Source: an uncultured Bacteroidales bacterium (GTDB lineage: Bacteria > Bacteroidota > Bacteroidia > Bacteroidales > Muribaculaceae). From it: a DNA stretch of 64,000 bases. The notes below the pieces were generated by a model that saw only the letters and a list, made by a program, of their open reading frames with translations, had not been told where the DNA came from and did no database searches. Positions within the stretch are counted from its first letter, which is position 1. Each line of letters starts with the position of its first letter. The DNA lies in assembly GCA_902762385.1 (NCBI GenBank), contig CACWNQ010000007.1, positions 29,821-93,820 of the forward strand, in the 5' to 3' direction. Of this stretch, positions 26,001 to 46,021 are shown piece by piece. Position numbers and translations under genes: made by a program.

Positions 26001-26031
26001 TTGTTTCCTCTTTAAACCTACATTATTTTTG
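26001..26031 (+). promoter_or_regulatory. Promoter inside element copy A
   Basis: TTG at 26001-26003 and TATTTTTG at 26024-26031 are 20 bases apart. It would transcribe the element and run toward porE, giving a leader of about 450 bases if there is no stop between. Confidence 0.65.
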
Positions 26032-26312
26032 CGCACACATGTTCTTTAATAAATAATATATGACTATGGATAACCTCAAGAAAATATCATTTTTGTCCCA
26101 CATGCCCCAAGCACGAAGTGCTACTTGCAATTTGTGACTTCCACCATCTGTCCCACCCGCTACGAAACATTAAGTGTGACAGTTTAATTTTCTTAATACC
26201 TAAAACAAATACACCCATTATGATAATAAACTCTCAAAACGCAAAAATAAAAAAACAAAAAAGTGTCCCACCCAGTCCCCCTCGCTGGAAAATTTGCTTA
26301 CAATCCGCAACT

Positions 26313-26363
26313 GAGTCAGGCGAGTCAACTGAGTCAGGTGAGTCAACTGAGTCAGGTGAGTCC
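26313..26363 (+). repeat. 9-base tandem repeat, about six units
   Basis: GAGTCA recurs at 26313, 26322, 26331, 26340 and 26349 with a partial sixth at 26358. Units alternate GAGTCAGGY and GAGTCAACT. Copy B of the element has the corresponding repeat with about five units. Confidence 0.9.
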
Positions 26364-26489
26364 AAAAACTATTCTCTCCTTTTCCCTCTTCCCTCTTCCA
26401 CCTTCCCTCTCTCCTCTTTCACTAAAAACACGCTTCTGTGCAATAAAATAATAATATATTTCGTTTTAAGTATAGTTTTATTATAACAC

Positions 26490-28859
26490 ATGAAAAGAAT
26501 ATTTTATATAATACTTTCGGCCATCATGCTGGTTACTGCGGTGCAGTTCACATCGTGTAAATCGGCTAAGATGAAGGATGCCGACGAGAAATATGAGCGG
26601 GGCGAGTATTTCGCTGCCGCCGAGACCTATCGAAAAATTTATAACAAACTCAAGCGCAAGGAAGACCGTTATCAGCGTGGGGAGGTTGCGTTCATGCTTG
26701 GCGAGTGCTATCGCCACTTGAACCAGAGTGCCCGTGCTGCTGCATCATATCAGAATGCTAAGCGCTATGAGTGGGAAGATAGTCTCATCCCATTCTATCT
26801 TGCTCAGGCACAGCAAATGGAAGGCCAGTACACTCTTGCCGAGCGCAACTATAAAGCTTATCTCGACACTGCTCCCAATAATAAGTTGGCCAAGGAGAGT
26901 ATGCGCGCTTGCCAGCAGGCACCTAAATTGCGTGATGCTGGTTCTCGCTACATAGTTAAGAATGCTCGCATCTTCAATAGTCGCCGTGCCGATTTCTGCC
27001 CAATGTTCCTCGACAGCAAGTGTGATATACTGTATTTCACTTCTTCACGTGATAAAGCTACGGGTACTGCTAAGAGTGAGATCACTGGCACTAAAAACTG
27101 CGACGTGTTCTTCTCAAAGAAAGACGATAAAGGCAAATGGGGCAATCCCGAACTTGTAGAGGGCGACCTCAACACCGAGTTTGATGAGGGTATTACTGCT
27201 TTCACACCCGATGGACAGACGATGTTCTTTGCTAAGGCTTTACGCAAAACAGACTCTGGAACTAGTGTGGAAATCTACAAGGCTAGCCGCAGTGAGGCTA
27301 AATGGACTGGTGCTGCAAAGTTTGAGATTACTGCCGACACTCTGTCGGCCTATGACGACCCTGCTGTGAGCAAAGATGGCAAGTGGCTCTACTTCTCGAG
27401 CGACATGCCAGGCGGACAGGGTGGCAAGGACATTTGGCGCGTGATGATTAGCGACGGACATGGCACTCTTGAGAACCTGGGCGAGCAAATCAACACTACT
27501 GGCGATGAGCGCTTCCCCTATGTGCGCGACGACAGCACACTTTATTTCTCTAGTAATGGCCACGCAGGATTTGGAGGACTTGACCTCTTCCGCGCTCGTC
27601 TGCAGCCTTCGGGACGATGGTTTGTTGAGAACATGGGTTCTCCCATGAACTCCAGTGCCGACGACTTTGGCATCACCTTTGAGGCCGAGGGCGAGAAAGG
27701 ATTTTTCTCGAGCAACCGTAAGGATGCACGTGGTTACGACCACATCTTCAGTTTTGAGAAACCCGACCTCAAGATTTGGATTTCGGGTTATGTGCTCGAT
27801 AAGGACGAAGAACCTGTGCCCAATGCCATTATTCGCATTGTGGGTAATGACGGTAGCAACCAAAAAGCAGTTGCCAAGCCCGATGGTACTTTCCGTTTCG
27901 ACTTGCAACGTGGTGTCAGTTATGTGATGCTTGCTGGGGCTAACGGTTACCTTAATGGCAAGCAGCAATTCACCAGCGACATCGAGGAGGCCGATGCCGA
28001 ATATGGCGTTGACTTCATTCTTGCGGCTATGACTAAGCCTCAGGTAATCGAGAACATCTTCTACGACTACAACAAGGCCACGCTTCGTCCTGAGTCAAAG
28101 GCTGCACTCGACTCGATGGTTCAGGTTCTGAACGATAATCCTTACATCACCATCGAAATGGGCTCGCACACCGACCGTGTGGGTAGCGATGACTATAACA
28201 ACAAACTCAGTGAGCGTCGAGCCAAGAGTGTTGTCGATTATCTCATCGAGAATGGTGTTGACAGCGCACGACTTCAGTATCGTGGTTATGGCAAGACTGT
28301 TCCAAAGGTGGTTACAAAGCGCATAGCGCGACTTTATCCACAGTTTAGCGAGGGCGACACGCTCAACGAGGCGTTTGTCTTGGCTCTTTCTAAAGAAGAC
28401 CTCGCGGCTGCCGACCAGATTAACCGTCGCACCGAGTTCCAAGTACTTACCACTAATTATTACCGCACCTTCGATAGCTCGATTATTCAGCCGGGTGCCG
28501 AGGAAAATGATTCGACTAAATCGGGTGGTGATGACATAACCCTCAAGGATAAAGACATAGAAGGCAAGACTCCCGAGGAGATTGCTAAGATGAAGGCCGA
28601 AGCTGCCGAGATGGCTAAGATGGAAGCCCAAAAAGAGAGAGAGAAAGCTGCTGCCGAAGGCAAGGAGGCCGATCCCGAAGGCAAGTATAGCGGCCAGAAT
28701 GGTAAAGAGAGGCCTAAACTTGATGGTGGCAGCCTGGGTGGAAGCACTAGACCCGGCACTGGAGGACGACCCAGCGGAAGTGGCACAGGAACAGGTTCTG
28801 GCTCAGGAGCAGGAGCTACAAGGAAGTCAAGTGACCCCAATGCTACACGAAAGAAATAA
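26490..28859 (+). CDS. porE: PorE-type type IX secretion protein (OmpA family)
   Basis: 789 residues. Lipoprotein signal with lipobox FTSC (Cys23). The order of parts matches P. gingivalis PorE: TPR-like helices (about 30-150), a PD40 beta-propeller (about 160-425) with repeated YFSS and FSSN motifs, a carboxypeptidase regulatory-like domain (about 428-505) with AVAKPDGTFRFDL, and an OmpA C-terminal peptidoglycan-binding domain (about 515-640) with NIFYDYNKATLRPESKAAL and SERRAKSVVDYLIENG. A 150-residue low-complexity tail (Lys/Glu, then Gly/Ser/Thr) is added. PorE anchors the secretion machine to peptidoglycan. It lies 5 kb from the gldKLMN/porPT operon. Confidence 0.9.
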   Translation: MKRIFYIILSAIMLVTAVQFTSCKSAKMKDADEKYERGEYFAAAETYRKIYNKLKRKEDRYQRGEVAFMLGECYRHLNQSARAAASYQNAKRYEWEDSLIPFYLAQAQQMEGQYTLAERNYKAYLDTAPNNKLAKESMRACQQAPKLRDAGSRYIVKNARIFNSRRADFCPMFLDSKCDILYFTSSRDKATGTAKSEITGTKNCDVFFSKKDDKGKWGNPELVEGDLNTEFDEGITAFTPDGQTMFFAKALRKTDSGTSVEIYKASRSEAKWTGAAKFEITADTLSAYDDPAVSKDGKWLYFSSDMPGGQGGKDIWRVMISDGHGTLENLGEQINTTGDERFPYVRDDSTLYFSSNGHAGFGGLDLFRARLQPSGRWFVENMGSPMNSSADDFGITFEAEGEKGFFSSNRKDARGYDHIFSFEKPDLKIWISGYVLDKDEEPVPNAIIRIVGNDGSNQKAVAKPDGTFRFDLQRGVSYVMLAGANGYLNGKQQFTSDIEEADAEYGVDFILAAMTKPQVIENIFYDYNKATLRPESKAALDSMVQVLNDNPYITIEMGSHTDRVGSDDYNNKLSERRAKSVVDYLIENGVDSARLQYRGYGKTVPKVVTKRIARLYPQFSEGDTLNEAFVLALSKEDLAAADQINRRTEFQVLTTNYYRTFDSSIIQPGAEENDSTKSGGDDITLKDKDIEGKTPEEIAKMKAEAAEMAKMEAQKEREKAAAEGKEADPEGKYSGQNGKERPKLDGGSLGGSTRPGTGGRPSGSGTGTGSGSGAGATRKSSDPNATRKK

Positions 28860-28917
28860 TTTTCGGCCTGGTGAGGCCGGGTAGGTCTCACTACTTAACA
28901 TTTAAAACTTATATTTA

Positions 28918-29526
28918 ATGTTTTCAGGAATAGTTGAAGAAGCCGCCCGAGTGGTGGCACTCGAGAGAGAAGAGGGTAACCTGCACATCACACTTAAGTG
29001 CAGCTTTGTCGATGAGTTGAAAATCGACCAGAGCGTGTCGCACAACGGAGTGTGCCTCACTGTAGTGAAACTGCCAGGCGACGGAACCTATACCGTTACC
29101 GCAATCCAGGAGACGCTCGACCGTAGCAACCTTGGACTTCTCAAGGTAGGCGACGAGGTGAATGTGGAGCGTAGCATGCTCATGAACGGTCGCTTAGATG
29201 GCCACATCGTTCAAGGTCATGTTGACCAGACTGCTACCTGCACTAGTGTGCGTGAGGCCGATGGTAGCTGGTACTACACCTTCCACTACAAGGTCGACCC
29301 AGCAATGGCGCGCAAGGGTTACGTAACTGTCGAGAAAGGCAGTATAACTGTCAATGGAACTAGCCTCACGGTGTGCAACAGCGAGCGCGACAGCTTTGAG
29401 GTGGCCATTATTCCCTATACCCACGAACTTACCAACTTCCACAGCATCGTGGAGGGTACGGTGGTCAATCTGGAGTTCGATATCATTGGCAAGTATCTCG
29501 CCCGACTAATGGAGTTTAGTGATTAG
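28918..29526 (+). CDS. ribE: Riboflavin synthase
   Basis: 202 residues with two repeated lumazine-binding domains (about 1-90 and 95-190), beginning MFSGIVEEAARV. Motifs include QSVSHNGVCLTVVK, NVERSM and the second-domain GSITVNGTSLTVC. It converts two 6,7-dimethyl-8-ribityllumazine molecules to riboflavin. No FMN riboswitch is visible; it follows porE after 58 bases and may share its transcript, continuing into the phosphodiesterase gene. Confidence 0.96.
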   Translation: MFSGIVEEAARVVALEREEGNLHITLKCSFVDELKIDQSVSHNGVCLTVVKLPGDGTYTVTAIQETLDRSNLGLLKVGDEVNVERSMLMNGRLDGHIVQGHVDQTATCTSVREADGSWYYTFHYKVDPAMARKGYVTVEKGSITVNGTSLTVCNSERDSFEVAIIPYTHELTNFHSIVEGTVVNLEFDIIGKYLARLMEFSD

Positions 29527-29568
29527 ATAACAAATCTCTGAAATCTGTTTTCTGAAATCTCGCATTTA

Positions 29569-30096
29569 ATGAAGACTATTGGAATCATAAGCGACACTCA
29601 TTGTTATTGGGATGACCGGTATGCCGAGCATTTTGCCGACTGCGACGAGATTTGGCACGCAGGCGACATAGGCAACTCCAAGCTCATCGACATGATTGAG
29701 GAGATTGGGCCTCAGGTGAGAGCTGTGTGGGGTAATGCCGACGGGCAAGACCTGCGCCGTCGCTTTAAGGAGACCGAGATTTTTACTGTCGAGGGCGTGA
29801 AGGTTATGCTAACTCACATTGGTGGATATCCTGGCCGTTATGCGCCTGGCATCAAGTCAAGGCTTGACTTGGTGCAACCTAAACTCTTTGTTTGTGGTCA
29901 CAGTCACATCCTCAAGGTGATCCCTGACCGCAGCCTTGGGGTGCTCACAATCAACCCTGGAGCTGCAGGTCGTCAAGGCTGGCAGAAGGTTAGAACTCTT
30001 ATCCGCCTCACTCTCGACGCTGGCACTATCACAGGCTGTCAGGTAATAGAACTGGCCGACGACCGTGATAATCCCAGAGGAAGAGTGGTAGAATAA
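29569..30096 (+). CDS. YfcE/MJ0936-type metallophosphoesterase
   Basis: 175 residues. Metal ligands are visible in order: GIISDTHCYW, HAGDIGN, VWGNADGQ (GNxD in place of GNCD), LTHIGGYP and VCGHSHILK. Small enzymes of this family hydrolyse phosphodiesters in the cytoplasm; physiological substrates are not settled. No signal peptide. The gene follows ribE by 42 bases and precedes the SPOR lipoprotein by 27 bases. Confidence 0.9.
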   Translation: MKTIGIISDTHCYWDDRYAEHFADCDEIWHAGDIGNSKLIDMIEEIGPQVRAVWGNADGQDLRRRFKETEIFTVEGVKVMLTHIGGYPGRYAPGIKSRLDLVQPKLFVCGHSHILKVIPDRSLGVLTINPGAAGRQGWQKVRTLIRLTLDAGTITGCQVIELADDRDNPRGRVVE

Positions 30097-30123
30097 ACAT
30101 TAGTAATTTAATTTCTGTTCGAT

Positions 30124-30615
30124 ATGAGAAAGATATATAACATATTATTGCTTATGGGTGTTGTGGTGGCCATGTGGGCATGCCATAGCACCGAGGCCAA
30201 CTATAAGGAGAGTTACGACAAGGCTGTCGCTGCAAGTCGCACCGGCGAAAAGGGCGAGATGTACATCCATGACCTAGAGAGCCGCAAGAAGGCTAATTAC
30301 GTTGTGGATGGTGACAGCATTCGCTTGTTGCACAATCACTTCAACATCATCGACGACAAGAGTGATATGATCAAGAAATATAACGTGGTTGTTGCCGAGT
30401 TTAAGCAGAAGTTTAACGCACAGAGTTGCCGTGATCGTCTGCGCCAGGAAGGTCATGCTTCCTATGTGGTTTATATTTCGGCCAAGAAGCTCTATTGCGT
30501 AGTAGTCGAGGGTTATGACGATATAAGTCCTGCAGCTGCATTTGCCAAGAACCCCGAGAAGTATATGAAGATGAAGGTGCTGGTGCCCCGAGCCTGGGTG
30601 CTCACTAGGATGTGA
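30124..30615 (+). CDS. SPOR-domain lipoprotein
   Basis: 163 residues. Signal peptide with a cysteine at ending MWAC (about residue 20), compatible with lipidation. The C-terminal 80 residues have the SPOR pattern: YNVVVAEFKQKFNAQSCRDR, then SYVVYISAKKLYCVVVEGYDD. SPOR domains bind denuded peptidoglycan at septa, so a periplasmic cell-wall role is likely. It ends 11 bases before the menA start. Confidence 0.82.
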   Translation: MRKIYNILLLMGVVVAMWACHSTEANYKESYDKAVAASRTGEKGEMYIHDLESRKKANYVVDGDSIRLLHNHFNIIDDKSDMIKKYNVVVAEFKQKFNAQSCRDRLRQEGHASYVVYISAKKLYCVVVEGYDDISPAAAFAKNPEKYMKMKVLVPRAWVLTRM

Positions 30616-30626
30616 TATTTGGAAGC

Positions 30627-31523
30627 ATGGGCAAGCAAGTGAAAATTTGGGTTGAAGCTATGCGCTTGCGCACATTGCCAGTGTCGGCAAGTGGTGTGCT
30701 GCTGGCTATAGGCATTGCAGTATGGCAGAATCACTTTCGTTGGATCCCAGCAATATTGTGCCTTGTGTTTGCTCTAATGGCGCAGGTCGTGTCGAACTTT
30801 GCCAACGAGTATTATGACTATCGACGTGGTGCCGACAAGAAAGGTCGTGTGGGGCCTAGGCGTGGTGTGACCGAGGGCGATATCGTGCCCACGTCATTAC
30901 GCAATGTAACCTATCTAACGCTTGCTATTGCTTGCCTAGTTGGTTGCGGTCTTATACCATATGGTGGATGGCAAATGATTCCGGTGGGAATAATGATTGC
31001 CGTGTTTGCCCTTGCCTATAGTGCAGGACCGTACCCTCTGTCCTACCATGGACTGGGTGAACTCACTGTTTTTTTGTTCTATGGTATGGTACCTGTAATC
31101 TTCAGCTACTATGTGATCGCAGGTCGCATGGATGCTCTTGCCGTGCTGGGAGGCATCACCATAGGGTTTATGGGAGTGAATGTGCTGCTGGTTAATAACT
31201 ACCGTGACATGGACGACGATATTGATGCCGGTAAGCGCACTGCTGTGGTGATTTTTGGTCGCAAACTAGCTGCTGCCGCCTATCTGTTCAATGGATTCAT
31301 GGCAATTGCTATGCTCTCGCCATTGTGGCTTATGATTTATCTTAACGACTGCTTGTCGCACTGGATCTATCTCGTTCCCCTGCTTTACCTTGTAATGCAC
31401 ACCATCACTTGGATAAAACTCAACCGTAGCACTGGTGCCGCTCTTAATCCGCTACTAGGTGCGACGGCTCGCAACATGCTCATCTTCACAGTGCTGATGC
31501 TGCTTTTTTTCTTCGTGATTTAA
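30627..31523 (+). CDS. menA: 1,4-dihydroxy-2-naphthoate polyprenyltransferase
   Basis: Start set at the ATG at 30627 (MGKQVKIWVEAMRLRTLP); the GTG at 30612 adds five residues within the previous gene. 298 residues and about eight membrane helices. The two Asp-rich motifs of UbiA-type transferases are present: NFANEYYDYRRGAD and NNYRDMDDDIDAGK. MenA attaches the isoprenoid chain to 1,4-dihydroxy-2-naphthoate in menaquinone synthesis. Last gene of the rightward set beginning at porE. Confidence 0.94.
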   Translation: MGKQVKIWVEAMRLRTLPVSASGVLLAIGIAVWQNHFRWIPAILCLVFALMAQVVSNFANEYYDYRRGADKKGRVGPRRGVTEGDIVPTSLRNVTYLTLAIACLVGCGLIPYGGWQMIPVGIMIAVFALAYSAGPYPLSYHGLGELTVFLFYGMVPVIFSYYVIAGRMDALAVLGGITIGFMGVNVLLVNNYRDMDDDIDAGKRTAVVIFGRKLAAAAYLFNGFMAIAMLSPLWLMIYLNDCLSHWIYLVPLLYLVMHTITWIKLNRSTGAALNPLLGATARNMLIFTVLMLLFFFVI

Positions 31524-31587
31524 CTGAAGGGTCGCTCATATCTTTCTTGACAATCTAATGCGTATTTTCGCATCAGGCAACAAAAAA

Positions 31588-31614
31588 CATGCGAACCATT
31601 ATGTGATTCGCATG
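31588..31614. terminator. Bidirectional terminator between menA and gldN
   Basis: CATGCGAA at 31588-31595 pairs with TTCGCATG at 31607-31614; A-rich and T-rich flanks lie on the two sides. It separates convergent operons. Confidence 0.65.
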
Positions 31615-31643
31615 CTTTTATATGTGATTATAGTCAGTGTGCT

Positions 31644-32774
31644 TCAGCGCTTGCGGTTTCTAACCGAGCGACCAGCGCTCTGACTGCTCTTAATCTCTTT
31701 GGGTTTTGAGGTCTTCTTCTTAGTGGTTTTCTTCTTCTCTTCGCTCTTGTTGCTGCCACGTTTTGTCGAAGATTTCTTCACGCTCTTTGATTCATCCTTG
31801 GCCTCAGTGGCAACCTCTCCATTCTCGTCAAGGGTCTCACCGTTTTTCTCGGCCTCAAGCTTGCGTTTGGCCTCAACTTGTGCCTGGAGTTCCTGTCGTG
31901 TGGGTGACCACAGGTTCTTGTCAAATCGGTGCAATCGCTCCTCGATGCTGTCACGAGCATGAGCCAGAGAGGCTGAGTCGGGGTAGAGCTGCATGAGCGA
32001 TTTGTTCTGCATGTTCTTCACCTTGTAGATGTCGCCCGAGTACATCTTGAGCTTGAAGAAGTCGTCAAGGTTGTAGCGCATGAGGTTGTTGTCATCGTCG
32101 GTAAAGACAAACTGCTGTGCAATGTAGGGCCTGATGTCGTTGAGTTTTACCCAGAACATAGGGAACTTGAGAATGCCTCCATACTCGTCCATGCGGTGGA
32201 GCACTGGGCACAGAGCATCAACGCGAGAGCGCATCTTGTTGGAACGGGTGTCGAACGACCACTTCTCGATGATGTAGTAGCTCAGGATTTCGTTACCGGG
32301 GATGTCGGAATCATCAATCTCATAGATTGGATTCTTCTCGTTGCTGCCTTTGGCCTCCGAGAATAAGATATGGAAACGGTCGAGCATATCGCTGACCTTA
32401 ATCTTATACTCATCGGTGAACATCTCACGTCCATCGAGATACTCATAGGCCGATATCTTGTTACTTGCAAGAAGTCGCATGATGATGAAGAACAGGTTCT
32501 GCCCGTCCTCGTTGGGCTCATCAGGATAGTAGAGGGCTGGGTTCTTGCCTTTTGTAAGGTCAAGAACACGGTAAACAACCTTGGTCCATTGCAGGTCGGC
32601 CTCGCTAGGCTCGTTCTGCTCGAAGAACGCCTGTTGTCTTCCTGATACCTTTATCGAGCTGTCTTCCTTCTTGTCCTTACGGTCCTTGCTGTCTCTCTTG
32701 ACAACTTGCGCACTTGCTCCTGCGGCTGCAGTAGCAAGTATTAATGTCAAAACTATGAATTTAAAGTATTTCAT
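31644..32774 (-). CDS. gldN: Type IX secretion/gliding protein GldN (PorN)
   Basis: 376 residues. Signal peptide ends at AGASA. The core (about 45-260) matches GldN: WTKVVYRVLDLTKGKNPALY, RMLDRFHILF-like segments and LPMFWVKLNDIRPYI-like sequence. The last 90 residues are a Lys/Ser/Glu-rich tail (KKTTKKKTSKPKE and similar). GldN/PorN and GldK/PorK form the ring of the T9SS on the periplasmic face of the outer membrane. It is the last gene of the operon porT-porP-gldK-gldL-gldM-gldN. Confidence 0.95.
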   Translation of the reverse strand: MKYFKFIVLTLILATAAAGASAQVVKRDSKDRKDKKEDSSIKVSGRQQAFFEQNEPSEADLQWTKVVYRVLDLTKGKNPALYYPDEPNEDGQNLFFIIMRLLASNKISAYEYLDGREMFTDEYKIKVSDMLDRFHILFSEAKGSNEKNPIYEIDDSDIPGNEILSYYIIEKWSFDTRSNKMRSRVDALCPVLHRMDEYGGILKFPMFWVKLNDIRPYIAQQFVFTDDDNNLMRYNLDDFFKLKMYSGDIYKVKNMQNKSLMQLYPDSASLAHARDSIEERLHRFDKNLWSPTRQELQAQVEAKRKLEAEKNGETLDENGEVATEAKDESKSVKKSSTKRGSNKSEEKKKTTKKKTSKPKEIKSSQSAGRSVRNRKR

Positions 32775-32820
32775 ATTATGAATTTATGTGATGTGACAAA
32801 ACTTTTGTTCATTCAGGAAA

Positions 32821-34434
32821 TTAGTTGACGATAACTTCCATGGGCGAGATGTCGCGTGTTACGCCATCAGGACCCTTGGCCTTGATGCGTGCAATGAAGA
32901 AACGCTCACCTCGGCGCATGCGCTTGAAGCTGGCCTTTTGGCGCTCCGAGAAGTTGTTACCTGCCGAAATCTCGGTCAATGCTTCTCCCATACCCATCGA
33001 TCCCATCTTGATAGTCTCGAAACTGAGCACTTGGAACTCGATGTCGAGCAGTCCGTCATCAATAGCAGCATGCAGTGTGTTGATGCCCATAAGTGTGCTC
33101 TTGGCAATAGGCTTGCCACCCTTGTAGCGGTTGTCCTGTCCAAGATTAATGTAAGGTGTAGGGTCAGGCAACTTGCGTGCCTTGAATGTTGATGAACCCA
33201 CATTGGTCCTCACTCCGTCGATTTCAACCGACACGGTGATTACACAGTCTACTCCCACTTGTGCTGGGCGAGCTATCCAGTTTTCACCATTGCGAGTGAG
33301 TGTGCCGTTGGTCATTGATGCACTAATGGTTCCGTCGCCTATACCAGGCACTGATATTGCCACAGGGTTGTCGATACCAGTGTAGAACACGTTCATCATT
33401 GTGGCGCTTACTGTTGCTACTGGGTCGATTACTGTGTAGCTGGACTTGAAGTCGCGCTTGATCACCTGTCCGTCACGTCCTACAACTTCAATGTAACCCG
33501 AGTAGTTGACAACTCCCGATTGACTGGTTCCCACCTCGTAGGTTCCGTCGCGGCTACTCAGTCGAGCACCGTTGACATATACTGCAGGGCGTTGAGTGGA
33601 GTCGATAGCGGCAAGCACAATCTGTGCTTTGTATCTTGAACCTCGCATAACAACTCTTGACTGAGGAATAACAAATGCGTTAATCCAGTTGACCTTAATC
33701 TTGCTGACATCGGCTGTCTCGAGTTCTTCGAGCTCCTCGGGGCTTATGTTAGTGAGCGTGAGCAGATGCCTGAGCGCTTCACCTTCGGCATAGCGTATGT
33801 CGTTCTGCAACTTGGTGAGAAGTGTGATAGCAGCAATGGTTGGCATGCTCTCGAAGAGGGAATTTTCCCATGTCTTGTTGCCGTCAATGTCATCTTTGAG
33901 CTTGTAAGGTTCGGTCGAAAGCGATGCCTCTATGTTTTTACGTTTATCGGGGTCATCAATATACCTTAGCAAGAAGTCTTTAAAACTTGTGATTCTCAGT
34001 CTTAAGTCGGTGCCTCGATGTGTGTCGTGCGACAGCATCACAGTGTTTGCTGCGTCAACATTTTCTCTATTCTCAATATTGCTGAGATTGCCTTCAGGTC
34101 CATCGGCTTCTTTCACAATCAACAGCTTTAGGCTATCGATATAGAAATAAAGCTCATCGGCTGCATTGCGTATCTCGTTACCATTGTTGAGAAGCTGTTC
34201 GCCATGTTCGGGGTCGGAGTTGTAGAAGTCCTGGAGTTTATTCATCATCAGCATGTTGCGCGAGGTGATGGTGTTATTTGATCGAGTCAGGCCTGCTTCA
34301 ACCTGACTAAATCCATTGAGCACATCGTTCGAAACGTTAAGCGCAAGCATGGCCGTCAAGACGATATACATAAGGTTTATCATCTTCTGACGTGGCGACA
34401 TTTTCGCCAGTGACTGATTTTTTCCAGCTGCCAT
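32821..34434 (-). CDS. gldM: Type IX secretion motor protein GldM (PorM)
   Basis: 537 residues. One N-terminal helix (about 17-37; MINLMYIVLTAMLALNVS) is followed by a large periplasmic region of helices and then three or four beta-sandwich domains, as in GldM. The end PMEVIVN and the sequences VMRGSRYKAQIVLAAID and INTLHAAIDDGLLD are characteristic. GldM dimers with GldL form the proton-driven motor across the inner membrane that powers secretion. Gene lies 36 bases downstream of gldL. Confidence 0.96.
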   Translation of the reverse strand: MAAGKNQSLAKMSPRQKMINLMYIVLTAMLALNVSNDVLNGFSQVEAGLTRSNNTITSRNMLMMNKLQDFYNSDPEHGEQLLNNGNEIRNAADELYFYIDSLKLLIVKEADGPEGNLSNIENRENVDAANTVMLSHDTHRGTDLRLRITSFKDFLLRYIDDPDKRKNIEASLSTEPYKLKDDIDGNKTWENSLFESMPTIAAITLLTKLQNDIRYAEGEALRHLLTLTNISPEELEELETADVSKIKVNWINAFVIPQSRVVMRGSRYKAQIVLAAIDSTQRPAVYVNGARLSSRDGTYEVGTSQSGVVNYSGYIEVVGRDGQVIKRDFKSSYTVIDPVATVSATMMNVFYTGIDNPVAISVPGIGDGTISASMTNGTLTRNGENWIARPAQVGVDCVITVSVEIDGVRTNVGSSTFKARKLPDPTPYINLGQDNRYKGGKPIAKSTLMGINTLHAAIDDGLLDIEFQVLSFETIKMGSMGMGEALTEISAGNNFSERQKASFKRMRRGERFFIARIKAKGPDGVTRDISPMEVIVN

Positions 34435-34470
34435 TACTTATTATAATGTGATTGTGTAGTGATTCAGTAA

Positions 34471-35652: not shown

Positions 35653-35705
35653 GTTGTTGCTATGTTAAAGTTGAAAAGAATGTGTATTGGTCGAGAATAG
35701 AAATA

Positions 35706-37151: not shown

Positions 37152-37213
37152 TATACTCTAGAATATGTTATCTTATTTAATGTATTGTTTATCTTGTTCT
37201 TATAAAAAACGTA

Positions 37214-38203: not shown

Positions 38204-38215
38204 TGTAATTCTAAA

Positions 38216-38959: not shown

Positions 38960-39061
38960 TATAACTTTAATAACGCAATTTTTTTACTCTTATTGCAATT
39001 TTTTCACTTTTTGCGTTATTACGAGGCGTTTTTTCAGCTTTGTTGCTATGAAAAAGTAGAC

Positions 39062-40072
39062 TTAATTGTGTTTTATGGTTTTGGTGAGCTGATGCGCTGC
39101 CCAAGCGATGATAATGAGTAGAGGGAGTGTGCAGGCAAAACTGTAATCATAAATCATGATGCCATAGTGGCCAAAGAATGGCGCCACTATGTAGCAAAAG
39201 ATGTTGTTGACGAGTTTTTGCAAGATGTAGATTTCGAAACTGATTTCGCCTAACCAAACTAGAGGACGTATGGTTAATAGTTTGCCCACAATTCCTTCGT
39301 TGCCATCAAGTGCTGTGAAAGTTACGATGAGCAATGCCACAGGAATCCACCATAGTGGCGCGTTCCCAAGTCGTAGCGCCAATTGATTGCCGCTGGCATG
39401 TAGTGCTATGAATGCTGCGAAAATGAGCAATGCTGCCACCTCGATAGCACTGGCGCTAGCAGGGGAAACGTGTTGTGTCTTTAATGGCGTGCGCATCGTG
39501 GCGCCTAACATCATTCCGAGCGTATAGTCGACTAAACGCATAGGGGGAAAGACATGGTAGAAACTGAATAACTTTTCACTTGCAAACAAGTAAAGGGCTG
39601 TAACAGCTAGGCATGCTGTTATCATGATTGCCCATGCTACTTTGCGGTTGGTAGTGTTTATGAAACGGAGCAGAAGCGGAGTAGCAATGATTGCAAACAG
39701 AAGAGAACTAAGGAACCATGAATGGATACTATAGTTGTAATACACATCTACGTTTGGCACCCACGATTGCAACAGTGCCACATGGAGGGGTAAGTCCCAG
39801 CCGTAGTGGAACTTGTGAATCATTACAAGGTCAAGTGCTATCATGGCTGTCAAGGCAAGCCAGTGAAGCGGGAATATGCGCCTTACACGGCGTAGGTAGT
39901 ACTGTTTAGTAGATTCCAGGCTTTCGTGACGCAAGGCAACAAGAAATCCACTGATAATGAAAAAGAACGTTACTCCAGCAAAGGCCATCTGGTCAAACTC
40001 ATGCATCGCAAAGTGAAAACACACGATGCACAAGGCAAAGATGCCACGCCAGCTGGTGAGAGTCTTAATCAT
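39062..40072 (-). CDS. Acyltransferase 3 family membrane protein
   Basis: 336 residues and about ten membrane helices. Family motifs are present: SWRGIFALCIVCFHF near the start, FFFIISGFLVALRHE, YYLRRVRRIFPLHW, and YNYSIHSWFLSSLLF. Such enzymes add acyl groups (often acetyl) to extracytoplasmic sugars of polysaccharides. The upstream glycosyltransferase gene on the same strand suggests polysaccharide decoration. The start codon directly abuts the heptad repeat at 40073-40123, which is therefore in its ribosome-binding region. Confidence 0.9.
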   Translation of the reverse strand: MIKTLTSWRGIFALCIVCFHFAMHEFDQMAFAGVTFFFIISGFLVALRHESLESTKQYYLRRVRRIFPLHWLALTAMIALDLVMIHKFHYGWDLPLHVALLQSWVPNVDVYYNYSIHSWFLSSLLFAIIATPLLLRFINTTNRKVAWAIMITACLAVTALYLFASEKLFSFYHVFPPMRLVDYTLGMMLGATMRTPLKTQHVSPASASAIEVAALLIFAAFIALHASGNQLALRLGNAPLWWIPVALLIVTFTALDGNEGIVGKLLTIRPLVWLGEISFEIYILQKLVNNIFCYIVAPFFGHYGIMIYDYSFACTLPLLIIIAWAAHQLTKTIKHN

Positions 40073-40123
40073 GTATGAGTTATGAGTTGTGAGTTGTGAG
40101 TTATGAGTTATGAGTTGTGAGTT
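40073..40123 (-). repeat. Heptanucleotide tandem repeat before an acyltransferase start
   Basis: On the minus strand about seven units of AACTCAY (plus strand RTGAGTT) run up to the ATG at 40072. They fill nearly all of the 61-base gap between the glycosyltransferase gene and the acyltransferase gene. Unit variants are mixed A/G at one position. Confidence 0.9.
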
Positions 40124-40133
40124 TTCAGTTTGT

Positions 40134-41318
40134 CTACATTATTGAAGTGTAGTTGTTCTTGCGAGTGAATAGTCCCTTGATTTTGTAGCCTGTATTAATA
40201 ACTGGTCGCAATAATGTGAATAGGGGAGTGGAGAACAGCAACAGAGGCAAACGCAACAGGTAGCAATTGCGGAATGTGGCGAGCATCAAGGGAAACCATG
40301 TTATGAGTAGGATGATAACTGCTGCCACAATCACGGCGATATTGGTGTAGCACAAAGCCACTGCAGCTGCAATGGCTGCAAGCCGTAGCCAGTAAAGCAA
40401 TGACATCCACGCCTGAGTGCGGAATTGCGCTTTGTATTTCACATGACGGGAGGTGAAATCGCGACGTGACTTTAGTATGCTGAATGCATGCGCCAGGTCG
40501 TCGTAATAGGATGTAGTGAAACTTGCTGGCAGTAGTTCGAGCCTCGTGTTTTGTGGAGTTGAAATCTCACTGATGAAAATATCGTCATCTCCCCATTTCA
40601 TCTCAAGTGACTTAGAGAACCCTTTGTTGTTGAAGAATACTTCTTTACGATAGGCGAGGTTGTCGCTTATTCCACGATAGGGCTTTCCTTTAGCAGCGCT
40701 CAAAATCCACTGCATTGCAGTTGTCATCTCGTCGAGAACTCGGTAACTCTTGCTTATGCCACGGTCTTCGTTGTGTGCAAAATGTGAATATCCAAGCACG
40801 ATGTCGATGCCAGGTCCAAAGTTGCGCATCATTGCCATGAGCCACCGGTCGCTGTGGACTTGGCAATTGGCGTTGGTTGTTAGAATTATGTCGTACTGTG
40901 ATGCCTTAATGCCAAGCATCACTGCAAGTTTCTTGCGAGAGAGTGAGCGCGTTTGGTCGGGCACAGTGACAATCTTCAGGTGGTCGAAATACACCATCAT
41001 GTCGCCCACAAGGTCCTTGGTACCATCGAACGAGGCATCATCAACGACGATAACTTCGAATGGGGCAGGGTAGTTCTGTTTCATGATGGTTGGGAGGAAC
41101 TTGTTGAGCCACTTTTCATCGTTATTGGCAAAAACGATGATCGACACAGATGGTAGGTCATCGTGATTGAGGTAACGGCGGGTGCGCTCCTCATATTTCA
41201 TGAACTTCAACAGCCTCATGCTGCGGCGGTTATACCACACTACCCACACAAGCGATAGCACTAAAGCTACCCCCAGAAGGCACCATATAATATAATGTAT
41301 ATCTAGCGAAAAAATCAT
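40134..41318 (-). CDS. Family 2 glycosyltransferase, membrane-bound
   Basis: 394 residues. An N-terminal helix (about 8-28) precedes a GT-A domain with SVSIIVFANNDEKWL, VIVVDDASFDGT, TTNANCQVHSDRW and a MKWGDDDIFISE acceptor motif. Two or three C-terminal helices follow (about 300-370). The nucleotide sugar and acceptor cannot be told. The GT-acyltransferase order on one strand suggests an envelope glycan. A -7 element (TACCTTTG, minus strand 41358-41351) lies upstream. Confidence 0.9.
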   Translation of the reverse strand: MIFSLDIHYIIWCLLGVALVLSLVWVVWYNRRSMRLLKFMKYEERTRRYLNHDDLPSVSIIVFANNDEKWLNKFLPTIMKQNYPAPFEVIVVDDASFDGTKDLVGDMMVYFDHLKIVTVPDQTRSLSRKKLAVMLGIKASQYDIILTTNANCQVHSDRWLMAMMRNFGPGIDIVLGYSHFAHNEDRGISKSYRVLDEMTTAMQWILSAAKGKPYRGISDNLAYRKEVFFNNKGFSKSLEMKWGDDDIFISEISTPQNTRLELLPASFTTSYYDDLAHAFSILKSRRDFTSRHVKYKAQFRTQAWMSLLYWLRLAAIAAAVALCYTNIAVIVAAVIILLITWFPLMLATFRNCYLLRLPLLLFSTPLFTLLRPVINTGYKIKGLFTRKNNYTSIM

Positions 41319-41350
41319 TTACTCTTTTCCAGTATTCTTAAATTCGGCTG

Positions 41351-41358
41351 CAAAGGTA
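41351..41358 (-). promoter_or_regulatory. -7 element upstream of the glycosyltransferase
   Basis: TACCTTTG on the minus strand. The nearest TTG upstream is 24 bases away, longer than the usual 20, so the promoter is only partly supported. Confidence 0.4.
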
Positions 41359-41396
41359 ATCATTTTTTTGTAAGTACTCGCTCAACGCAGCTTTCT

Positions 41397-43208
41397 TTAT
41401 GGCTCCACCCAGTCGCCGTTTTCTTTAATGAGGGCGATAAGGCGAGGAATTGCTTCAGCTTCGGGGATGTTTTTCTCGATGCACTCTTTACCTTTGTAAA
41501 GGCTGATTTTTCCTACTGCAGCTCCCACGTAGCCATAGTCGGCATCGGCCATCTCGCCGGGGCCGTTCACTACGCACCCCATCACGCCAATCTTGAGGTG
41601 GGTGAGGTGTTCGGTGGCCTCTTGCACACGGTGCACGGTGGTTTGGAGGTCAAACATCGTTCGTCCGCAACTTGGGCACGATATGAATTCTGTCTTGGTG
41701 GTGCGTAGTCGTGCCGCCTGCAGCGTGGCAAAGGCATATTCCACCACATCGTTTTGATTCTCATAGTCAGGGGCTTCAAGCCATGTGCCATCGCCCAGCC
41801 CGTTGAGCAACACTGCACCAAGATCGGCTCCGGCTTTCACTTGCAGCCACTCGCTGTCGATATCAAGATAGGTATTGTGAAGGATGACGGGGCAGTTGAT
41901 ATCAGCATCTATAAGGGCATGAATAAGCGCTTGTTGGCAACCACTCGTGTTCACGTTGTCGGGGGTGATGATGAGTGCTACATTGTCGCAATCTCTTAGA
42001 AAGAGTAGTTTCTCAATGGGAGTGCTTGCAGGCACATTGAGCCACTTCACAGGCGCTTCGACACTGGCATTCCAATTCTCGAGCGTGAATAGGGGAGAAG
42101 TGTTGTCCTCGCCGTGATAGTTGCTTGCTGGTACTATAAAGTTGTTGCTCTTGTTTAAGGCGCCACTAGCGCTGTAGAAGAAATCAGGACGACGGTTGCT
42201 TGTGATTTCTTCAGGCTGGCACGAAGCGATGACTATGGGCATTTTACCTCCCACCAGTCCTGCAATGCTCTTGCCCACACGGCGCTCTGGCATGAGTGGG
42301 TTATAATCCTTGCTGAAACTTCCATTGATGTGAGGATGATTCTCACGGCTGGCGATACAGTCGACGAGTTTGTTGGCTACAGGCACTTCGAGTTCGGGGT
42401 CTTCACTCAGCGACACGCGTATTGTATCACCCAATCCTTGACTCATCAGTGCACCAATGCCCACAGCGCTTTTGATGCGTCCGTCCTCGCCAAATCCTGC
42501 CTCGGTAACACCGAGATGTAGTGGGAAGTGCATGTCCTCGGCATCCATGGCTGCTACAAGGCGTCGCACTGCTTCGACCATAACTACCACGTTAGATGCT
42601 TTCATCGATATTACCACATCCATGAATTTCTGCTCAACAAACACTCGCAAATATTCCATCACACTCTCAACCATGCCGGCTGCAGTGTTGCCGTAGCGGC
42701 TCATGATGCGATCACTCAGCGAGCCATGATTCACACCCAGGCGCACTGCTGTGCCGTGCTCCCGGCACAGATTGATGAAGGGTACAAGTTTGTCGTGGAT
42801 GCGTTGCAGCTCGGCTTGATATTCCTCGTCGGTATAGGTAAGATTCTTGAATTGGCGTGCGGGATCAACGAAATTGCCTGGATTGATGCGTACCTTGTCG
42901 GTTACCTGTGCTGCCGCCATTGCCGCACGTGGGTTGAAGTGAATATCGGCAACCAATGGAACCTTGCAGCCACGTTGGCGCACCTGCTGTCGTATAACGC
43001 CCAAGTTCTCGGCTTCTCGCACCCCTTGAGTGGTGAGACGAACATAATGCGCACCTGCATTGGCGATGCGCATTATCTGCTCCACGCTAGCCTCAATATC
43101 ATTGGTTGAGGTGTTGGTCATCGACTGCACCCTGATGGGATAGTCACTTCCCAGGGGCGTGTTGCCTATATTAACTGTGATTGTTTTCCGTCGTTGATAG
43201 TTGAACAT
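41397..43208 (-). CDS. ispG: 4-hydroxy-3-methylbut-2-enyl diphosphate synthase, Bacteroidetes type
   Basis: 603 residues, about 230 more than E. coli IspG because of the large inserted middle domain (about 300-510) found in Bacteroidetes, Chlorobi and plants. The TIM-barrel part shows PLVADIHFNP, VRINPGN, LRVFVEQKF and HLGVTEAG. The iron-sulfur ligands are Cys in FISCPSCGRTMFD and MGCVVNGPGE near the end. It makes HMBPP in the MEP isoprenoid pathway. It stands 78 bases upstream of the glycosyltransferase gene. Confidence 0.96.
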   Translation of the reverse strand: MFNYQRRKTITVNIGNTPLGSDYPIRVQSMTNTSTNDIEASVEQIMRIANAGAHYVRLTTQGVREAENLGVIRQQVRQRGCKVPLVADIHFNPRAAMAAAQVTDKVRINPGNFVDPARQFKNLTYTDEEYQAELQRIHDKLVPFINLCREHGTAVRLGVNHGSLSDRIMSRYGNTAAGMVESVMEYLRVFVEQKFMDVVISMKASNVVVMVEAVRRLVAAMDAEDMHFPLHLGVTEAGFGEDGRIKSAVGIGALMSQGLGDTIRVSLSEDPELEVPVANKLVDCIASRENHPHINGSFSKDYNPLMPERRVGKSIAGLVGGKMPIVIASCQPEEITSNRRPDFFYSASGALNKSNNFIVPASNYHGEDNTSPLFTLENWNASVEAPVKWLNVPASTPIEKLLFLRDCDNVALIITPDNVNTSGCQQALIHALIDADINCPVILHNTYLDIDSEWLQVKAGADLGAVLLNGLGDGTWLEAPDYENQNDVVEYAFATLQAARLRTTKTEFISCPSCGRTMFDLQTTVHRVQEATEHLTHLKIGVMGCVVNGPGEMADADYGYVGAAVGKISLYKGKECIEKNIPEAEAIPRLIALIKENGDWVEP

Positions 43209-43270
43209 TTTTATATTTATTACATTAAAGTGATCTAGCCCACCTGGACCCCTTAGAATAATTTAATATC

Positions 43271-43921
43271 TTAACCAAACAACCGCATCATAAGCGATAC
43301 ACACACAACTCCGTTGACAAATCCTGCCACAACTTGCATGAAGTTGTGACGCTTCAGGAGCATGCGTGCTGAACCTAAAGCGCCGCACAATCCTATTGCT
43401 GCGAAGATGAAAAACAGCATCCACACAGGACTGATGACTTCGAGGTCCATAGCATCGAGCTGCCACAGCAAGGCCAGGACGCCACCCATACCTGCCATGT
43501 GAGCACTGATTTTCCACTTGATGTTGACAATGGTCGAAATTAGGCAGGCGAGTGCTCCACCGGCTGCAAACATCACCAGCCATCGTGGCTCGTGGGTATA
43601 GGAAAGGAACCAAACTGCTCCTAAATAATAGACGGTTGCAGTGATGTAAGGAATAAGGCGATCTTGCCGCTTAATCATTCGCTTGTCCTTGATGAGTTTG
43701 AAGTTGTGAAGCACGGCAATTGTTACCATGGGAAGAACGCAGGTGATGCCGAAGATGATGAGCAGCAAGTTGATGCGTGAACCCGTGGTGTCGAGAACCT
43801 TTGGCGAGATGCTCAATGCCATGAACATTCCGTAGGTGGGTGTGAGCAATGGACTAAGCACAGTTGATATGAACCGTGCTGTCTCATCGAGAACTCTTAT
43901 TCTTGCCAGTCGTGATGCCAT
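43271..43921 (-). CDS. PAP2-superfamily-like membrane protein
   Basis: 216 residues and about six helices. Remnants of the phosphatase motifs are visible: KRQDRLIPY, KISAHMAG with a His, and SARMLLKRHNFMQ with a His. The Asp that normally follows the last His by four positions is Gln here, and Ser-Arg is Ala-Arg, so catalysis is uncertain. Typical PAP2 members dephosphorylate lipid phosphates in the periplasmic leaflet. Located 52 bases downstream of rpoN and 62 bases upstream of ispG on the same strand. Confidence 0.72.
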   Translation of the reverse strand: MASRLARIRVLDETARFISTVLSPLLTPTYGMFMALSISPKVLDTTGSRINLLLIIFGITCVLPMVTIAVLHNFKLIKDKRMIKRQDRLIPYITATVYYLGAVWFLSYTHEPRWLVMFAAGGALACLISTIVNIKWKISAHMAGMGGVLALLWQLDAMDLEVISPVWMLFFIFAAIGLCGALGSARMLLKRHNFMQVVAGFVNGVVCVSLMMRLFG

Positions 43922-43973
43922 GCGATGGTTAAGTAGTAAGTTATGGGTGATTTTATTCTGTGCTGCCTCTCAA

Positions 43974-45500
43974 CTAGTTAGTGCGAAGTGTCTTGCGTTG
44001 TCGCGCAACGGGAATCTTCATGCTGTCGCGGTATTTTGCTACAGTTCGTCGCTTTATATCATATCCCTTGCGTTGCAGCTCCTCGCATAGTTTGTCGTCG
44101 CTCAGCGGTTTTGTCTTGTCTTCATTGTCGACCATGTCTTTGATAATCTCTTTGATAGCCGTGGCCGAGGCATCGTTATCGTTGACTTTCTTAACAAAGA
44201 AGTACTTCACAGGAAATATGCCCCAATTGGTGTCGACATATTTGTTTTGTTGGGCACGCGAGATGGTCGAGGTGTCATAGCCTGTCTCATCGGCGATATC
44301 CTTGAGTACTAATGGCTTGAGTGACTGTGTGTCGCCAGTGATGAAGAACTCTTGCTGACGCAACATTATAGTTTTCATTATTTTGTAAAGTTTCTCCTGA
44401 CGTTGCTTGAGCAGCATGATGAAATTAGAGGCATTTTCATATTGGCGCTTAATAGTCAATTCCTCATCGCCCATCTTTGCGTTCTGGCCTTTGAGTTTCG
44501 CCAGTCGCTGGTATTCAATCTCGTAGCTTTCTGAAATTTGTAATTCGGGAATATCGTTAACGACAGTGAGTTGTAGCTTGTTATCGTCGGTGGTGATTAC
44601 AAAGTTGGGGGTGATGTGGCTTGCGTTGGCCATTCTTTCACCACTGCTGAACAAGTTCCCTGGTCTTGGGTTAGTGCGCTTAATTATCTTGTCGGCCTCG
44701 TTGAATGCAGCCTCATCTATGTTGAGAGCATTCAAGATTTTGTCGTAGTGATGTCGCTCGTAGGCTTCAAAATGCTTGTCGACGATAGCGTGGGCAAGTT
44801 GAGCGGCCTCTATATCGACACCTTTCATGTCCTCGATTTGAAGCAGTATGCACTCGCGAGTGTTGGTCGCGCCAATGCCTGCCGGTTCCAGATCTTGAAT
44901 AACCTCAAGCACCTCCTGTACCTCTTGTGGCGCAACAAACTCATTCTCTCTTGAGATGATGTCACCGCAAATTGATGTGATGGGCCTGCGCATGAGTCCG
45001 TCATCATCAATTTCACCTACTATGTACTCGGCGATGAGCATCTGTCGCTCGGTAAGGTCACGCTCATGCACTTGGTTCATAAGAACTTCATACATCGAGG
45101 CCTCGTTTACCACTGGTGGGCGATACACGTCGTCGTTAGCTCGTTTTTTGCGTGATGCTATCAAGGCAAACCCGTCGTCGAACGTGTCGGCCGTGTTGTC
45201 GTCATCGTTTTGGGTGTAGGGCGACTCAAATGGGTCGTCATTACCTTGACCCACCTCGGCTGTGGTGTCGTCGTCACCTTCATCGTTGTTGTCGCCGAAG
45301 TCGTCGATGTTATCGCTAGCTTCACTAGCCTCTTCCAATGCCGGGTTATCGTTAAGCTCGGCGTCGATGCGCTCCTTGATGCCCTCATCGTTCATCTCGA
45401 TGAGCTCACCTAGCAGCATCTGGTTAAGAGTGGCACGTTGAGTCTGAATCTGCTCCTGGCTCAGCTTTTGTATCTGTTGAAAACTGTCTTTTTCGCTCAT
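43974..45500 (-). CDS. rpoN: RNA polymerase sigma-54 factor
   Basis: 508 residues. Region I is Gln-rich at the start (FQQIQKLSQEQIQTQRATLNQ), an acidic region II follows (about 60-110, with DNNDEGDDD), then the core-binding and helix-turn-helix parts, and the RpoN box RRTVAKYRDSMKIPVARQR near the C-terminus. RpoN recognises -24/-12 promoters and needs enhancer-binding activators. The opening METQ-like variation (MSEKDSFQQI) lacks the usual first Leu-rich Gln segment of gammaproteobacteria but fits Bacteroidetes. Promoter at 45527-45557. Confidence 0.96.
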   Translation of the reverse strand: MSEKDSFQQIQKLSQEQIQTQRATLNQMLLGELIEMNDEGIKERIDAELNDNPALEEASEASDNIDDFGDNNDEGDDDTTAEVGQGNDDPFESPYTQNDDDNTADTFDDGFALIASRKKRANDDVYRPPVVNEASMYEVLMNQVHERDLTERQMLIAEYIVGEIDDDGLMRRPITSICGDIISRENEFVAPQEVQEVLEVIQDLEPAGIGATNTRECILLQIEDMKGVDIEAAQLAHAIVDKHFEAYERHHYDKILNALNIDEAAFNEADKIIKRTNPRPGNLFSSGERMANASHITPNFVITTDDNKLQLTVVNDIPELQISESYEIEYQRLAKLKGQNAKMGDEELTIKRQYENASNFIMLLKQRQEKLYKIMKTIMLRQQEFFITGDTQSLKPLVLKDIADETGYDTSTISRAQQNKYVDTNWGIFPVKYFFVKKVNDNDASATAIKEIIKDMVDNEDKTKPLSDDKLCEELQRKGYDIKRRTVAKYRDSMKIPVARQRKTLRTN

Positions 45501-45526
45501 ATCACATTTGTCTTGTCAATGAAATA

Positions 45527-45557
45527 CAAAGGTAATGCTTAATTTTATTCTAAACAA
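45527..45557 (-). promoter_or_regulatory. Promoter of rpoN
   Basis: On the minus strand TTG (45557-45555) and TACCTTTG (45534-45527) are 20 bases apart. The leader would be about 20 bases. It lies between rpoN and element copy B, so rpoN does not depend on transcription through the element. Confidence 0.75.
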
Positions 45558-45666
45558 CTCACAAACATTTTTTTTGAAAAAAAGTTTGAGCGAAGAAAAT
45601 GGAAAATAGTTATTAGTTGTTAGTGAGAGAGGGAGAGGAGAGAGGAGAGAGGGAAGAGCAGTTTAT

Positions 45667-45708
45667 GGACTCACTTGACTCACTTGACTCACTTGACTCA
45701 CCAGACTC
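45667..45708 (-). repeat. 9-base tandem repeat of element copy B
   Basis: On the minus strand about five units of GAGTCAAGT (the first GAGTCTGGT, the last partial). It aligns with the repeat at 26313-26363 of copy A, which has a different unit count and different unit sequence. Confidence 0.9.
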
Positions 45709-45990
45709 GGTTACGGATTGTAAGCTAATTTTCCGATGAGTGGGGCTGAGTGGGACACTTTTTTGTTTTTTTTATTTTGTGTTTTGAGAGTTTGTGGTCA
45801 TGATTGCCAATTTTGGTTTTAGATATTAAGGGATTTGGGTTATTATACTTGACGCTTGATAGTGGGCGGGACAGAGAACAATGGTTGCAAATTGTAAGTA
45901 GTGCTTCGCGCTTGGGGAGTGTGGGACAAAAATGTTTATTTTTTTCGAGGTTATCCATAGTCTATATATTATTAAATGAACATGTGTGCG

Positions 45991-46021
45991 CAAATGTAAT
46001 AACATGGACTGACAGAGACAA
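45991..46021 (-). promoter_or_regulatory. Promoter inside element copy B
   Basis: On the minus strand TTG (46021-46019) and TACATTTG (45998-45991) are 20 bases apart. The 17-base match with copy A (TTTGCGCACACATGTTC) begins inside this -7 box. Confidence 0.65.

Follow-up and report, generated by a model that had tools for sequence, protein, structure and literature searches.

Gene-less copies of a promoter-led dispersed repeat family before porE and rpoN in a Muribaculaceae genome, possibly derived from an AAA_25-helix-turn-helix unit

Two diverged, non-coding elements occupy intergenic sites in a 64,000-nucleotide stretch of contig CACWNQ010000007.1 (positions 29,821 to 93,820; hereafter the window) from an uncultured Bacteroidales bacterium of the Muribaculaceae. 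Copy A lies at 26001-26425 on the forward strand and points at porE, and copy B lies at about 46021-45617 on the reverse strand and points at rpoN. We propose that both are old copies, lacking a gene, of a dispersed repeat that is headed by its own promoter. This repeat family may derive from a unit built around a gene for an AAA_25 ATPase with a helix-turn-helix (HTH) domain. We put the probability of this reading at about 0.57, to which the match between the leader of copy A and an AAA gene on contig C36 of genome G001 adds slightly. The source genome, G000, is a draft of 37 contigs that is 96.6% complete, and both copies sit well within their contig, far from its ends. The comparison set held 71 genomes, among which G010 and G011 belong to the same genus as G000. 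The family is multi-copy in these three genomes. The link to AAA_25-HTH genes is moderately supported and is the new part of the findings.

Copies A and B are clearly related. Blastn aligned them at 75% identity (E 3.4e-70, positions 1-410 of a 441-base query), and 307 of 396 ungapped MAFFT columns were identical (77.5%), bearing out the original prediction, made from the letters of the window alone, of two diverged copies in opposite orientation. They are colinear across about 410 bases. That prediction counted five exact shared blocks of 12-17 bases; the in-order blocks are real, but those of at least 12 bases number eight (17, 16, 15, 13, 12, 16, 12 and 16 bases), against a mean of 0.07 and a maximum of 1 in 60 dinucleotide shuffles of B. 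The predicted distance from TTTGCGCACACATG to GCTTACAATCCG, 268 bases in A and 269 in B, was reproduced exactly. Each copy runs through a promoter, a leader motif, an ATG context, three GTCCCAC-like boxes, an A-rich run, CTTACAATCCG, a 9-base minisatellite and a CT-rich tract (Table 1). The elements named beforehand were all located in both copies: the heading promoter of TTG, 20 bases and TAnnTTTG; the three GTCCCAC-like motifs, of which B's second is GTCCCGC; and the 9-base tandem tracts (26312-26362 in A, 45668-45701 in B). PMC7366714 gives TAnnTTTG as the -7 consensus of sigma-ABfr.

The element recurs well beyond the window. Copy A matched 58 places in G000 at E<=10, many of them in the minisatellite only. 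A structure-free model of the core, trained on 11 sequences (nine G000 copies plus the G011 and G030 copies, with G010 excluded), gave nine matches above 110 bits and one 41-bit fragment in G000. Elsewhere it reached 139 bits in G011, 84 in G030 and 70 in the non-training genome G010. At E<=0.1, 29 of the 71 genomes had a match and 42 had none, the remaining matches being mostly below 25 bits and perhaps due to chance. A second model, of the promoter module, was built from 15 G000 copies. At E<=0.01 it found 35 matches in G000 (23 of these below 1e-8, 15 of the 23 being training copies), 33 in G010, 23 in G011, 15 in G039, 3 in G030 and 0-4 in each of the other 66 genomes. Among 61 genomes, the pattern AAANTGTCCCA is enriched only in G000 (71 occurrences; reversed-pattern control, 4) and G010 (136; control, 6), with 0-13 in each of the other 59, G011 having 2. 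Further copies, whose absence was among the findings that would have told against the original prediction, are thus dispersed in number across G000, G010 and G011. The better copies open with the same promoter module, which heads larger islands of recurring blocks, mostly constant in strand and order; the block motifs are patterns picked from these very islands, and block counts are therefore descriptive.

At the corresponding sites of relatives, the copies are missing. For rpoN and for porE alike, upstream DNA was inspected at 8 of the 18 loci, comprising G000 itself and loci of at least 71% protein identity, with some porE loci at that identity omitted. None of the seven relatives compared (G011, G010, G050, G030, G001, G042 and G045) has the element at porE. 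At rpoN, the spacer of G011 is short and lacks the element, nothing alike was found in G050, G030, G001, G042 or G045, and G010 has the end of another gene, of the AAA type, where G000 has copy B. Between each copy and its gene sits a conserved native signal, the porE upstream motif or the rpoN promoter. The statement that the copies point at porE and rpoN is therefore right as to orientation, but each gene retains its own promoter or motif below the copy. A long conserved regulatory leader of these two genes, one of the readings first offered, is consistent with the direction of both copies and with the lack of any terminator found between copy and gene. Other members of the family, however, precede unrelated genes or face a gene end, and because the copies are absent from the relatives and the genes keep their own promoters, we regard this reading as refuted at porE and rpoN, with a negligible residual probability. 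The porE motif itself resembles GCGTGCAATAAAG ... CGTTTTTAATGTAGTT (26437-26470 and the seven relatives) and is unlike the usual TAnnTTTG promoter; it may belong to an alternative sigma factor of type 9 secretion genes.

A promoter-model match led to an intact 461-codon gene in G001 that encodes an AAA_25 ATPase with a C-terminal HTH and a low-complexity tail. In Pfam, the RepA/RecA-like AAA_25 family (PF13481) matched at 45 bits against a cut-off of 27. Transposase and recombinase families were not the top matches: IstB_IS21 barely exceeds its cut-off (24.2 against 24.1 bits), and TniB, at 21.7, fails. Relatives of the gene occur in 12 of the 71 genomes. The promoter model matched directly upstream of the AAA gene at 9 of 21 loci (E 6e-8 to 2e-3, one a remnant gene), against 0 of 21 rpoN and porE loci and 0 of 19 loci of other genes from G000, G001, G010, G011 and G039, five genomes that carry AAA genes (37 distinct controls). 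The AAA gene on G001 contig C36 has no TTG box, but it carries copy A's leader and start context, TTAATAAATAATATATGA..CTATGGA, and blastn aligned copy A with G001:C36:7053-7079 at 93% identity (E 0.0038).

The 3' ends of these genes also resemble the islands. The core model matched the 3' ends of AAA genes at four of the 17 loci given to it at E<1e-3 (G000 C33 and C14; G010 C45 and C15); in the controls its one match was the AAA tail that precedes rpoN in G010 (C45). A AAAAAGTGTCCCA box stands at AAA gene 3' ends in G000 and G010, and a related CAAAAACTGTCCCA box follows the stop codon in G001, where the AAA gene on contig C168 (L265) is followed by a unit of about 92 bases that contains CAAAAACTGTCCCAC and is repeated four times in tandem. 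In G000, contig C17, which holds an AAA gene body, overlaps the starts of C33 and C14 by exactly 99 bases each, suggesting that this genome has the AAA gene end at least twice. A remnant on G010 contig C15 retains the HTH and GTCCCA boxes and has no ATPase domain. The AAA-HTH genes belong to the RepA-RecA-like fold family of AAA_25 ATPases (PF13481), have a promoter type in common with the islands and, in G000 and G010, share their GTCCCA tails. The AAA protein of G000 had no match in viral contigs, and a protein search of a phage set returned two distant AAA relatives at 25-26% identity.

Some islands and AAA genes may occupy the same sites. In G010, a contig starts inside an AAA gene, and the tail of this gene directly precedes rpoN, in the same orientation, at the site of copy B. 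At an island on G000 contig C6, the upstream gene is followed by an AAA gene in G011 (C15) and the downstream gene is preceded by an AAA tail in G001 (C115), in the same orientation. One or both flanks allowed seven AAA sites to be located in G000, and three of them match these two islands. These coincidences support, but do not prove, an origin of the islands as gene-less derivatives; an insertion hotspot would look alike. On this reading, the ancestral unit would have consisted of a promoter, a gene and a GTCCCAC tail. Loss of the coding part may then have left the islands, which could have spread by some further route or by block exchange between copies and may supply neighboring genes with an extra distal promoter and a variable minisatellite.

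A number of observations weigh against this derivation. Twelve of the 21 AAA loci lack a promoter match; two of the twelve start inside the gene (L287, L295), and one (L293) is without a TTG box. In the five best AAA matches, promoter similarity covers model positions 1-44 and stops just after the -7 box, so a common promoter class is possible rather than homology of the element, and the AAA promoters lack the GTTCATTGACAT leader present in most islands. None of the three AAA genes in G011 has a GTCCCA tail, and four of the seven placed AAA sites have no island in G000. At the rpoN (G010) and C115 sites, the AAA genes are visible only as tails at contig starts. G011, which is closer to G000 than G010 is by RpoN identity, is empty at rpoN, and to explain the coincidence at rpoN one must assume either a loss or a hotspot of insertion. 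Within A and B, no trace of ATPase-coding sequence was seen. A and B have no terminal inverted repeat in common, their inverted pairs differ, and one outer pair of A (26022-26037 / 26437-26452) lies in the porE motif that relatives conserve. Filled and empty sites have diverged too far for the junction to be placed, and no target duplication was readable. The islands lack sharp edges, with blocks shared piecemeal, and the constant core spacing described below comes from copies that were retrieved by that very core.

The conservation of the core does not look like that of a gene. Over nine ungapped copies, differences fell at the three codon positions 647, 665 and 708 times with no position favored, which supports the earlier view that the frames are out of register and conservation lies at the nucleotide level. 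Open reading frames behind family promoters read the same blocks in different frames and differ between copies. A small protein gene was considered and rejected: one frame is open in several core copies, but it shows no codon-position bias, has a frameshift in A and a stop in B. Two open frames behind promoters in G010, of 184 and 91 codons (L222 and L264), traverse the GTCCCA repeat blocks and read them in different frames.

RNA structure fared no better. An alignment of 11 copies yielded no predicted consensus base pairs or covariation, the fold z-scores of the two copies were -0.94 and -0.71, and Rfam gave no match at its gathering score and only implausible, chance-level ones below it. A small-RNA family, which had been among the first suggestions, thus finds no support from structure; an unstructured transcript is possible, because the promoter consensus is retained. 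What the copies do keep is length. Between A and B, the core has 1 indel and 50 substitutions, whereas the rest, including the minisatellite, has 7 indels and 39 substitutions (Fisher p 0.025). In all 12 copies counted, an interval of 25 bases separates the last GTCCCA(C) box and CTTA(C/T)AAT. The core therefore appears length-constrained, kept by its length and by boxes at fixed spacing rather than by codons or base pairs, and we read the constant interval as a fixed spacing of DNA or RNA boxes.

We examined the setting of the islands at 23 promoter sites of G000. Three of these run into contig ends; at the 20 readable sites, the downstream gene is co-oriented at 15 and opposite at 5, as judged from mechanically called open reading frames with small frames inside islands skipped. 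Read at these 23 sites, the family is multi-copy, intergenic and non-coding, as is expected of a miniature inverted-repeat transposable element (MITE). Islands share blocks of 100-390 bases at 90-98% identity in piecemeal fashion, and minisatellites and small hairpin blocks recur in many of them. A second type of block, seen at six loci (L007, L010, L012, L013, L016 and L062), carries a GGTCCATTTTTCCAG core between two TGTCCCA boxes, which are separated by 74 bases (73 in L062). A GACTCACTT minisatellite at L015 (G000 contig C13, around 32262-32320) lies outside the promoter-led islands, apparently where a coding region ends.

At the abcF site, G000 and G011 have a common upstream flank (96% over 702 bases), promoter and downstream flank, and the interior differs. 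At this gene G011 has the promoter and a minisatellite, and in G010 the modules lie on the opposite strand. Ten island genes, abcF among them, were compared in G011, G010 and G030. Not every gene gave a locus in every genome, some loci begin at contig ends, and four that were shifted by contig ends (G011 glyA, G011 htpG, G010 htpG and G010 DUF3467) were not used as they stood in this comparison. Where readable in relatives, lgt, topA, c34b and c1_516 showed nothing or single isolated pattern matches. At glyA, G030 has a core and minisatellite; htpG has modules in G010, as a separate reading also showed, and in G030, and c12lipo has a few in G011.

These features allow other accounts of the islands. 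They could be passive mosaic intergenic DNA, shaped by homologous recombination, slippage and gene conversion without any mobile unit, an explanation that we consider unlikely but keep in view. The piecemeal sharing of near-identical blocks, the recurrence of minisatellites and hairpins, the abcF site where only the interior differs between G000 and G011, and the lack of shared inverted repeats or a readable target duplication would all suit it. It accounts less well for a block order and strand that stay mostly constant with the promoter first (in patterns of our own choosing from these islands), for the absence of islands at orthologous sites or for the preserved core length. Alternatively, the islands may be units for long untranslated RNAs, in which a boxA-like motif behind a strong promoter would shield the RNA from Rho and an RNA with no conserved fold might act by sequence through its GTCCCAC boxes. 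The GTTCATTGACATA form of the leader motif resembles the rrn boxA, and the GYTCWTTGACAT motif closely follows a strong promoter that heads an untranslated region, as in boxA antitermination modules of rrn operons and of leaders of clustered regularly interspaced short palindromic repeats. The motif GYTCWTTRAYA, allowing one mismatch, occurs 9-13 nucleotides past TAnnTTTGC in 20 of 36 family promoters and at 19 of 352 other TAnnTTTGC sites; we read 10 of these 19 as islands that had been identified by other routes and 5 more as part of minisatellite loci. The transcript strand of the copies is C-rich and G-poor (G 11%, C 25-27%), and no intrinsic terminator was found in A or B. Against this, copy B fails the motif as counted and the 36 promoters were picked by our own patterns; the family is concentrated in few species, the orthologous sites compared do not have it, there is no covariation, the fold z-scores are near -1 and Rfam has no match. 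In a check for an rrn-leader origin of the promoter module, Rfam showed no rRNA in the 15 loci scanned. We hold the untranslated-RNA account to be very doubtful.

Still less probable is a classical MITE, that is, a non-autonomous derivative of an insertion sequence moved by the transposase of that sequence, in the manner of BrickBuilt of Porphyromonas gingivalis. Size, intergenic setting, copy number, internal minisatellite and promoter all match BrickBuilt (PMC4596501), yet A and B have no common inverted repeat and no match among phages and plasmids, and the sole partner found is an ATPase-HTH gene; the insertion sequences of G000 have not been catalogued. Both copies were absent from the phage and plasmid collections searched, as were two exact patterns from viral contigs. 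A known insertion sequence or MITE with terminal repeats, the finding that would have told against the original prediction, was thus not encountered. Its suggestion of a mobile repeat without a transposase is the best fit to the dispersed copies and empty orthologous sites, with the reservation that movement was not observed and transposases were not searched for in the genome. A bolder form of our proposal, which we offer as speculation and think rather improbable, is a selfish element without a transposase: the RecA/RepA-like ATPase-HTH protein would recognize GTCCCAC arrays at its own 3' end and spread the promoter-gene-array unit between intergenic sites, together with gene-less copies such as A and B that would act as portable promoters for housekeeping genes.

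BrickBuilt is the nearest published analogue that we found. It is likewise an intergenic Bacteroidales element, found in one or few species at about 20 copies per genome, with a leader, a minisatellite, a tail, a promoter and incomplete copies (PMC4596501). Compared by description, the two differ in several respects. The repeat of BrickBuilt is 23 nucleotides rather than 9, and some of its copies have IS5-type terminal inverted repeats (PMC4596501), of which none were found here. The sections consulted mention no link to an ATPase-HTH gene, for which there is a candidate here, and report promoters that are active in both directions in E. coli tests (PMC4596501). In the present family a single promoter heads the element, as judged by sequence alone. 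Judged by titles and the openings of abstracts, the literature searched held no description of this repeat family and no gene-less repeat derived from an AAA_25-type gene.

The family is of interest as a sizeable set of repeats with their own promoter-like modules between the genes of gut Bacteroidales. If the AAA-HTH link is true, a gene has been dispersed together with gene-less derivatives and with no known transposase, a route of DNA spread that can be tested directly. Even if the islands are passive, they place extra promoter-like modules before porE, rpoN, htpG, topA and glyA, whose effect could vary between close species.

Table 1. Coordinates of the features of copies A and B and of the adjoining native signals in the window.
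Feature	Coordinates	Strand	Description
Copy A promoter	26001..26031	+	TTG 26001-26003, 20 bases, TATTTTTG 26024-26031; TAnnTTTG consensus
Copy A leader motif	26041..26051	+	GTTCTTTAATA; GTTCATTGACATA in other copies
Copy A leader and start-codon context	26046..26070	+	TTAATAAATAATATATGACTATGGA; common to the AAA_25-HTH gene of G001:C36 (blastn)
Copy A conserved ATG context and first box	26066..26102	+	GTCCCAC 26095-26101
Copy A core	26124..26311	+	CTTGCAATTTGTGAC box, GTCCCAC 26150-26156, CTTAATACCTAAAAC, A-rich run, GTCCCAC 26265-26271, 25 bases, CTTACAATCCG; from alignments and spacing count
Copy A 9/18-base minisatellite	26308..26362	+	(TGAGTCAGG)n
Copy A CT-rich tract	26378..26422	+	
Native porE upstream motif	26437..26489	+	GTGCAATAAA ... 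CGTTTTAA; outside the element, kept in relatives
Copy B promoter	45991..46021	-	TTG 46021-46019, 20 bases, TACATTTG 45998-45991
Copy B leader motif	45971..45981	-	GTTCATTTAAT; fails the boxA-like pattern as counted
Copy B ATG context and first box	45920..45962	-	GACTATGGATAACCTC; GTCCCAC 45927-45921
Copy B core	45710..45898	-	CTTACAATTTGCAAC, GTCCCGC 45872-45866, GTCCCAC 45756-45750, 25 bases, CTTACAATCCG
Copy B 9/18-base minisatellite	45668..45708	-	
Copy B CT-rich tract	45625..45652	-	
Native rpoN promoter	45527..45557	-	TTG, 20 bases, TACCTTTG; outside the element, kept in G011 and G010

Two further observations arose from the same loci. A likely small transcription unit, with a TATACCTTTG promoter and a ATCCCCGAC...GTCAGGGATTTCTTTT terminator, lies antisense to a BamA-like gene in G000 and G001 and is inverted in G011 (L166, L298 and L296); it has no Rfam match. 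In G039, which represents a more distant species within the genus, a separate set of promoter-led islands (TATCTTTGCC.ACAC..CACGCTCATTGACAT) carries different payload blocks (L315-L322, L324 and L325). Eight of the ten G039 islands fetched lie within about 1 kb of a contig end and, in G000, five promoter-module matches lie less than 400 bases from a contig start. The repeat family probably breaks assemblies.

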